Positions 27,749-29,942 of a stretch of 64,000 nt of DNA are shown one piece after another; position 1 is the first letter of the stretch; the number at the start of each line of letters is the position of its first letter. The notes under the pieces are model-generated. The model saw only the letters and a list, made by a program, of their open reading frames with translations. It was not told where the DNA came from and did no database searches. A program made the position numbers and the translations under genes. This DNA is from an uncultured Nesterenkonia sp. (GTDB taxonomy: Bacteria; Actinomycetota; Actinomycetes; Actinomycetales; Micrococcaceae): contig CANLUC010000005.1 in the NCBI GenBank assembly GCA_947494195.1, forward strand, positions 124,001-188,000, written 5' to 3'.

Positions 27749-28129
27749 TCAGACTCGAGCGGCGTTGACATCCTGCGGGAGCGCCTTGCGGGCGGTCTCG
27801 ACCAGGACGCCGAAGGACTTCGCGTCGTAGACGGCGAGCTCGGCGAGCATACGACGATCAACCTCGACACCAGCGGCCTTCAGGCCCTGGATGAAGCGGT
27901 TGTACGTCATGCCGTGGGAGCGGGCAGCAGCATTGATGCGCTGGATCCACAGACGACGGAAGTCGCCCTTGCGCTTCTTGCGATGCTGGTAGTTATAGAC
28001 GTACGAGTGCAGCAGCTGCTCTTTGGCCTTGCGGTAAAGGCGTGAGCGCTGTCCGCGGTAGCCGGAGGCCCTGTCGAGGACCTTGCGGCGCTTCTTGTGG
28101 CCATTGACGGCCCTTTTCACACGTGCCAC
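27749..28129 (-). CDS. rplT: 50S ribosomal protein L20
   Basis: 126 residues, the normal length. The N-terminal basic extension [19 protein letters not shown] and the globular part [20 protein letters not shown] are typical. L20 binds 23S rRNA early in assembly and in several bacteria represses its own operon. It is the last gene of infC-rpmI-rplT, 50 bases after rpmI, with a strong terminator behind it. Confidence 0.98.
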
Positions 28130-28179: not shown

Positions 28180-28374
28180 TCAGATGCCCAGCATCCGCTT
28201 GATGCGCTTCTCGTCGGACTTGGTGACCATGCGGTCACCGGCCAGACGGCGCGTCAGGCGTGAAGACTTGTGCTCCAGGTAGTGGCGACGGTTGGCCTGC
28301 TGGCGCTTGAGCTTGCCAGAACCGGTCAGCTTGAACCGCTTCTTGGCCCCGCTGTGGGTCTTCATCTTCGGCAT
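28180..28374 (-). CDS. rpmI: 50S ribosomal protein L35
   Basis: 64 residues from [18 protein letters not shown] to KRIKRMLGI, a complete L35. The start is the ATG at 28374 with AGGAG a few bases upstream; the longer frame upstream is leader sequence, not protein. The gene is preceded by a 261-base leader holding its own putative promoter and a perfect hairpin. Confidence 0.97.
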
Positions 28375-28635: not shown

Positions 28636-29346
28636 TTAGAGGTTCTTCAGCTCGTCCGGCAGGTAATCGGCCATGGAGTTCGAGAGCGGCGCAGCGTCCT
28701 TCTTCTCCGTGGGGAGTCGCTCGGCGTTCTTCCGGGCACGACGGTCGTTCTTCGGCGTCGACTGCTCAACCTCGGCCTCTTCTGCGGCCGGCTCCTGGTT
28801 CTTGGCCTGGTTCTTCGCCGCAGCTTTGGCTTCCGCCTTGGTCTTCAGCGGACCGACGACCATCACCATGTGGCGGCCGTCCTGGCGCGGGGAAGACTCC
28901 ACGGCACCCAGGTCGGCGACGTCCTGCGAGAAGCGCTGAAGGAGGCGAACACCCATCTCCGGGCGCTGCTGCTCGCGACCGCGGAACTGGATCATCGCCT
29001 TGACCTTGTCGCCTGCTTCGAGGAAGCGGCGAGCGTGTCCGACCTTGGTGTTGTAGTCGTGGTCATCGATCTTGAGCCGGAAGCGGACCTCCTTGAGCAC
29101 CGTGGTGCTCTGGTTCTTCCGGGACTCGCGGGCCTTGACGGCAGCCTCGTACTTGTACTTGCCGAAATCCATCAGCTTGCAGACGGGAGGTTTGGCCTGC
29201 GGCGCGACCTCAACCAGATCCAGATCAGACTCCGTGGCGAGCCGGAGGGCGTCTTCGATACGAACAACTCCCACCTGCTCCCCCTGGGGGCCGACGAGGC
29301 GGACTTCTGGTACGCGGATGCGTTCGTTGATGCGTGGTTCGCTGAT
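28636..29346 (-). CDS. infC: Translation initiation factor IF-3, probable ATC start
   Basis: 236 residues if begun at ATC 29346. IF3 binds the 30S subunit and checks the start codon. The N-domain begins [20 protein letters not shown] and continues to [15 protein letters not shown]; the C-domain includes [20 protein letters not shown]. The C-terminus has an extra Ala/Lys/Glu-rich tail. From the upstream in-frame TAG to the GTG at 29274 there is no ATG, GTG or TTG, and starting at that GTG would delete the conserved N-terminal 24 residues. The ATC has AGGAG eight bases upstream. E. coli infC likewise uses a rare start (ATT). Confidence 0.93.
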
Positions 29347-29443
29347 CTGTCTAGCTCCTGTGTATGAGGAATTCGGTGAATGGGGAGTCTTCGGCGGATG
29401 CGCTGTGCGGACTCGAATGAGCCCCTACTGACGCCCCTGTGCG

Positions 29444-29473
29444 CGTTTAGCGCGGCCGAAGAGACTGTGACAA
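29444..29473 (-). promoter_or_regulatory. Putative promoter of infC
   Basis: On the minus strand TTGTCA (29473-29468), an 18-base spacer and TAAACG (29449-29444). It gives a leader of about 90 bases before the ATC start and lies in the divergent gap with the DUF1844 gene. Confidence 0.45.
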
Positions 29474-29483
29474 GCTTACCAGC

Positions 29484-29942
29484 ATGCAGAGTGAGCAGAG
29501 TAACCGCGCCGACGGCGCAGAGAACGGTCATGGCCACGATAAGGGCCAGGCCCACGACCACGGCGCCGAGCGCGGCTCGGGCCACGGTTCCGAGTCCTCC
29601 ATGGCTCAGGCGGTCAACCAGCAGTCGCGCGACATTGCTGAGGTTCCCGCCGTGGAGCTGATCAACACCGTCGCCGTGCACCTGATGAGCGCCGCCGCGG
29701 TGAAGCTCGGTCTGGCTGATGATCCCCAGGCGGAGGAGCTCAAGGATCTCGATGAAGCCCGCAAACTGATCACCTCCCTGGCCGGGTTGATCACGGCAGC
29801 CGCCCCTGAGGTGGGCTCGACCCACGCCGCACCGCTGCGCGACGGTCTGCGCTCGCTCCAGCTGGCCTTCCGCGAAGAGTCTTCCGTCCCGGACGCCCCG
29901 GGCAAAGGCCCCGGCGAGAAGTGGACCGGCCCGGTCAACTGA
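29484..29942 (+). CDS. DUF1844 family protein
   Basis: 152 residues. The first 40 are His/Gly/Glu-rich and low complexity. The DUF1844 core follows: DIAEVPAVELINTVAVHLMS, AAAVKLGL and DLDEARKLITSLAGLITAA. No enzyme motif or membrane segment is certain. The gene commonly sits divergent from infC in actinobacteria, as here. Function unknown. Confidence 0.9.
   Translation: MQSEQSNRADGAENGHGHDKGQAHDHGAERGSGHGSESSMAQAVNQQSRDIAEVPAVELINTVAVHLMSAAAVKLGLADDPQAEELKDLDEARKLITSLAGLITAAAPEVGSTHAAPLRDGLRSLQLAFREESSVPDAPGKGPGEKWTGPVN

Follow-up and report, generated by a model that had tools for sequence, protein, structure and literature searches.

Based on the excerpts of PMC5472188, infC starts at ATT in Escherichia coli and at ATC in Streptomyces, IF3 autoregulates its own gene via this non-canonical codon, and most Streptomyces species have a wrongly annotated infC start. 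The same excerpts report that repression by IF3 of a GTC start, that of sigR, was shown in Streptomyces, and a section of PMC10158994 describes IF3 as excluding weak pairing at the third base of the codon. Non-canonical infC starts are also given in portions of two further papers, for Staphylococcus aureus (AUA, PMC13009471) and Listeria monocytogenes (ATT, PMC13068326), with ribosome profiling or stated experimental confirmation as the evidence. In S. aureus, reporters with AUU or AUA starts had approximately 10% of the expression of AUG in one medium, and one of them reached up to 30% in another (PMC13009471, in the part consulted).

The infC gene of the uncultured Nesterenkonia sp. studied here is a conserved instance of this documented kind, as an actinobacterial ATC start of infC has already been published for Streptomyces (excerpts of PMC5472188), and the ATC start itself would be expected by specialists. 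The Streptomyces gene is like that of our bacterium in phylum, gene and codon, but belongs to a different order, and whereas those excerpts state ATC for Streptomyces, infC of the Micrococcaceae also uses ATT. E. coli infC (PMC5472188, in part) shares the non-canonical start and, provided that the regulation discussed below operates here, autoregulation by IF3, although its codon is ATT, not ATC. The S. aureus and Listeria genes, as described in the portions cited above, are non-canonical too, but have other codons and belong to another phylum. The E. coli K-12 record, as the preliminary description of this DNA had it, does have an ATT start for infC, which lies directly behind thrS, whereas the upstream neighbor here is a divergent DUF1844 gene. 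In locus L321 of our sample, which we take to be Streptomyces-like, the ATC is 5 codons before the RIN motif, compared with 4 codons in this Nesterenkonia.

The infC locus and its reading frame

The window, by which we mean the whole stretch of DNA analyzed (64,000 nucleotides of contig CANLUC010000005.1), contains the gene order infC-rpmI-rplT on the minus strand (Table 1). The latter two genes are presumably those named, as their identities were assigned by recall from their protein sequences. A profile search identified one IF3_N match genome-wide, and the infC product carries both IF3_N and IF3_C. The closest named relatives were Nesterenkonia, and the protein of N. sandarakina shared 93% in the best segment (among the best 80 of 564 confirmed relatives).

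Table 1. Coordinates of infC, its neighbors and associated elements in the window.
Feature	Position	Strand	Remarks
infC CDS, read from ATC	28636..29346	-	236 codons plus TAA (28638-28636); Pfam IF3_N 111.0 bits, IF3_C 114.4 bits
ATC, probable start codon of infC	29344..29346	-	Column ATC/ATT in Micrococcaceae; onset of protein-like conservation in 30 Nesterenkonia-group loci
Putative Shine-Dalgarno AGGAG	29355..29359	-	8-nt spacer to ATC; invariant in 30/30 Nesterenkonia-group loci
Internal GTG (Val25)	29272..29274	-	Start chosen by canonical-only ORF finding
In-frame TAG closing the infC frame upstream	29425..29427	-	Read from the sequence
Candidate -10 element TAAGCT (TANNNT type) of infC	29473..29478	-	Inside the block conserved in 30/30 loci; putative role, weak assignment
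rpmI (ribosomal protein bL35), ATG start	28180..28374	-	Downstream of infC, same strand
rplT (ribosomal protein bL20), GTG start	27749..28129	-	Coordinates from ORF list
DUF1844 gene, divergent, upstream of infC	29484..29942	+	Pfam PF08899, 59.5 bits

Reading of the frame bore out the earlier claim that there is no ATG, GTG or TTG from the upstream TAG to the GTG at 29274, as neither the 26 codons between the TAG and the ATC nor the 24 codons from the ATC to the GTG include one, and this genome has no such codon that is able to start the full conserved IF3. The ATC at 29346 and the AGGAG eight bases upstream had also been placed correctly. The sequence at this site is CTAGACAG, and a second TAG (29353-29351), located between AGGAG and ATC, is out of frame. 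An ORF list limited to ATG, GTG and TTG begins the frame at 29274 and gives a product of 212 aa, versus 236 aa from the ATC, in agreement with the earlier statement that standard gene calling loses 24 residues.

Base shuffling indicated how often such a frame arises by chance: canonical codons were also absent from 53% of the shuffles when the 26 upstream codons were used and from 66% when the 24 downstream ones were. The absence of a canonical codon alone is therefore no proof, and the case rests on the relatives. Of the 2750 ATC, ATT or ATA sites on both strands of the window, 27 had an AGGAG 5-10 nt before them.

Conservation of the start in relatives

The comparison was based on 337 infC loci, a sample that is not exhaustive, all of which were anchored on the RIN motif with a profile. 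Of these, 145 were the best-scoring matches of searches in the bacterium's own genome, genus, family, order, class and phylum, 80 came from named relatives (the best 80 of 564 confirmed, mostly Micrococcaceae and one Curtobacterium), 100 were stretches hand-picked from listings, and 12 more came from one family search. Removal of two loci without upstream sequence (L169 and L216) and of duplicates, defined as identical over 180 nt around the anchor, left 313 distinct loci for counting.

The preliminary description had proposed looking in the Micrococcaceae for a conserved ATC or ATT behind the ribosome site, and this was found in all 124 distinct loci of the family, the start column being ATC in 58 and ATT in 66, and never ATG, GTG or TTG. 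A conserved ATG elsewhere in the frame, which it had named as contrary evidence, was not seen in these relatives, in which canonical codons occurred only at scattered positions. By alignment column, ATC was also present in 63/63 further loci of the order and class. A Shine-Dalgarno-based start caller, whose choice was limited to near-cognate and canonical codons, deviated in two of the 63 (one ATA and one neighboring ATC). The spacer to the aligned AGGAGG was 7 in all 30 loci of the Nesterenkonia group and ranged from 5 to 7 in the 94 remaining Micrococcaceae loci, seven of which have a canonical codon within 12 codons of RIN. On a FastTree tree of infC DNA downstream of the start, comprising 185 of the 187 family, order and class rows (119 ATC and 66 ATT, no ATG), there were at least six switches between ATC and ATT.

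In the phylum sample, the frame is closed by a stop in 149 of the 313 distinct loci, with no ATG, GTG or TTG from there to RIN. In another 131, canonical codons occur upstream of RIN only at a distance of more than 12 codons, and in 33 there is one within 12 codons, in many cases in the Shine-Dalgarno stretch or at the codon before RIN; the loci with an upstream canonical codon do not alone force a non-canonical start. As a control of the method, the starts of rpmI and rplT from the same loci were canonical in 325 of 327 motif matches (only motif-matched loci were counted).

A close-up of the 30 distinct Nesterenkonia-group loci showed that AGGAG, its spacing and ATCAGCGA were unchanged in every one. 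Further upstream (codons -15 to -10 before RIN), only 17-43% of the loci had the commonest residue, and the Shine-Dalgarno columns right above the ATC had conservation at the DNA level (67-100% as codons or residues). From the ATC on, most positions were 100% identical as protein and many codons varied synonymously; the exceptions among the 29 codons profiled were one at 50%, one at 70% and three at 93%. This protein-level conservation and the IF3_N match agree with the earlier claim that the ATC opens the conserved IF3 N-terminus. The distance from the conserved upstream motif to the ATC was spread over all three frames (13, 11 and 6 of 30), and thus the stretch above the ATC does not behave as coding. 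In-frame stops were located six codons above the ATC in L007 and L008 and nine codons above it in L027 and L028, with no canonical codon between. A canonical codon able to start the full protein was likewise lacking in 16 of the 30 loci, and 14 had a canonical codon upstream in frame, scattered 11 to 175 codons above the ATC. Together, these sequence comparisons confirmed the observation of the ATC start and supported its interpretation: they back the position of the start, its ribosome-binding site and the lack of canonical codons at that position in the relatives examined, and infC of this bacterium very probably starts at the rare codon ATC.

Translation from the GTG at 29274, yielding a 212-aa IF3 without its first 24 residues, is in our judgment highly improbable. 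That GTG is the first canonical codon of the frame, with a G-rich run, GGGGGAGCAG, just upstream, but the GGAG of this run ends just 3 nt before it, and its column, which is canonical in 20/30 Nesterenkonia-group loci, is canonical in only 6/94 other Micrococcaceae and 9/63 order and class loci. A GTG start would reduce the IF3_N match from 111.0 to 75.9 bits, with model positions 1-19 of 70 lost, and the stretch preceding the GTG has strong protein conservation with synonymous-site variation. While a shorter solved IF3 chain (5me0_Z) aligns only from query residue 30, the chains 5lmn_X, 5me0_Y, 8jsg_A, 1tif_A and 6o6d_A align from query residue 4-6. Even less credible is a start at some other non-canonical codon further up, e.g., the ATT at 29418, for although the frame is open over the 26 codons above the ATC, the 30 Nesterenkonia-group loci show no conservation of that stretch, whose length among them is spread over all frames, and several of these loci have stops close above the ATC.

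The ATC at 29346 would be read by the initiator tRNA as formyl-methionine, with AUC pairing with the initiator anticodon CAU at bases one and two and being mismatched at the third. As IF3 is expected to destabilize 30S initiation complexes on codons such as AUC, infC mRNA would be poorly initiated when free IF3 is plentiful and better initiated when IF3 is scarce, producing a homeostatic loop in which the start codon itself would be the setting. Since IF3 represses such starts in other bacteria, the known feedback loop, including repression of infC by IF3, is most likely working here, by analogy with E. coli and Streptomyces. An ATC that is simply a weak constitutive start, setting IF3 at a low level with no feedback, appears rather unlikely to us. 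The S. aureus AUU and AUA reporter values cited above (PMC13009471, in part) make such a simple set-point possible; however, non-canonical starts are repressed by IF3 in both E. coli and Streptomyces (excerpts of PMC5472188), and many other mutations could likewise produce a low set-point, yet in at least six changes the codon has never left the ATC/ATT pair. We are fairly confident that infC starts at the ATC at 29346 and that this codon would set the known IF3 homeostatic loop.

Upstream region and second codon

Upstream of infC on the minus strand there is a GGTAAGCTTGTCACA block (29466-29480), whose pattern was matched in 30/30 Nesterenkonia-group loci. This block is possibly a promoter element, either for infC or for the DUF1844 gene on the other strand; a sigma-70 consensus scan of 29300-29600 gave no match. 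A conserved leader RNA structure was considered and rejected, as RNAalifold, given 29 Nesterenkonia-group sequences (all of the 30 but L020), predicted no pair in a stretch of 55 columns close to the candidate promoter. GC-rich inverted repeats were visible by eye in some rows of this stretch. The 150-nt leader stretch of the window folded slightly better than shuffles (z -1.67, with 11/200 shuffles as good), the infC start region folded no better than shuffles (z 0.15), and Rfam at gathering thresholds had no match in the window.

The second codon of infC was AGC in 184/187 family, order and class loci, the remaining three having codons that start with A, and the AGC share of the other Ser codons in infC was only 17%. 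We considered whether an A following the weak codon compensates for it (a fourth-nucleotide rule). In the same loci codon 2 was GCA in 170/172 motif matches for rplT and CCG in 118/126 for rpmI, and as these are nearly fixed too, the AGC of infC loses force and the rule is not claimed.

Other infC start codons in the phylum

Outside the class, the Shine-Dalgarno-based caller identified a Shine-Dalgarno-supported start in 109/126 distinct loci and none in 17/126; the 109 starts included ATC (41), ATA (40) and ATT (5). Among the loci outside the class with a called start, seventeen have GTC (14) or GTA (3) just before RIN, at the position homologous to the ATC (L128, L140, L143, L145, L226, L228, L233, L238, L239, L248, L252, L264, L272, L299, L306, L326 and L330). 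In these loci sequences like AGGAGGTGAT precede the GTC or GTA, the frame is closed by a stop two to six codons upstream, no canonical codon intervenes, and the first canonical codon is 1 to 50 codons past the R of RIN; two of them, in which it is 1 codon after the R, could in principle start there. All 17 formed one clade with a FastTree support of 99; the tree comprised 235 proteins, with family members thinned beforehand, and required one change. Three more GTA calls (L263, L294 and L314) were weak and were left out of the count. Based on these sequences, all 17/17 loci of this one actinobacterial clade apparently use GTC or GTA to start infC. A literature search of open-licence PMC papers for infC with a GTC start (GTC only) returned only the sigR paper.

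In five loci (L132, L241, L255, L262 and L290) a CTA or ATA is followed by a conserved GTG CCG GT and the N-terminus is extended. These loci also formed one clade (5/5, support 95), and their infC seems to begin at the conserved canonical GTG. No Shine-Dalgarno was seen by eye before this GTG, which is possibly a leaderless start. This clade counts against a universal ban on canonical infC starts. For the phylum, we consider it somewhat probable that the infC start has mostly been kept non-canonical while its codon drifted, and that one clade moved to GTC or GTA behind an extended Shine-Dalgarno.

For this genome and its family, these findings correct the N-terminus of an essential protein, and they offer a clean comparative case of selection on the weakness of a start codon. 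If the assignment of the GTC/GTA clade is true, IF3 would there autoregulate through a codon that is weak at both the first and third bases. The codon series in the phylum (ATC, ATT, ATA, apparently GTC or GTA, and in one clade seemingly GTG) could be used as a natural series to test how strict IF3 discrimination has to be.
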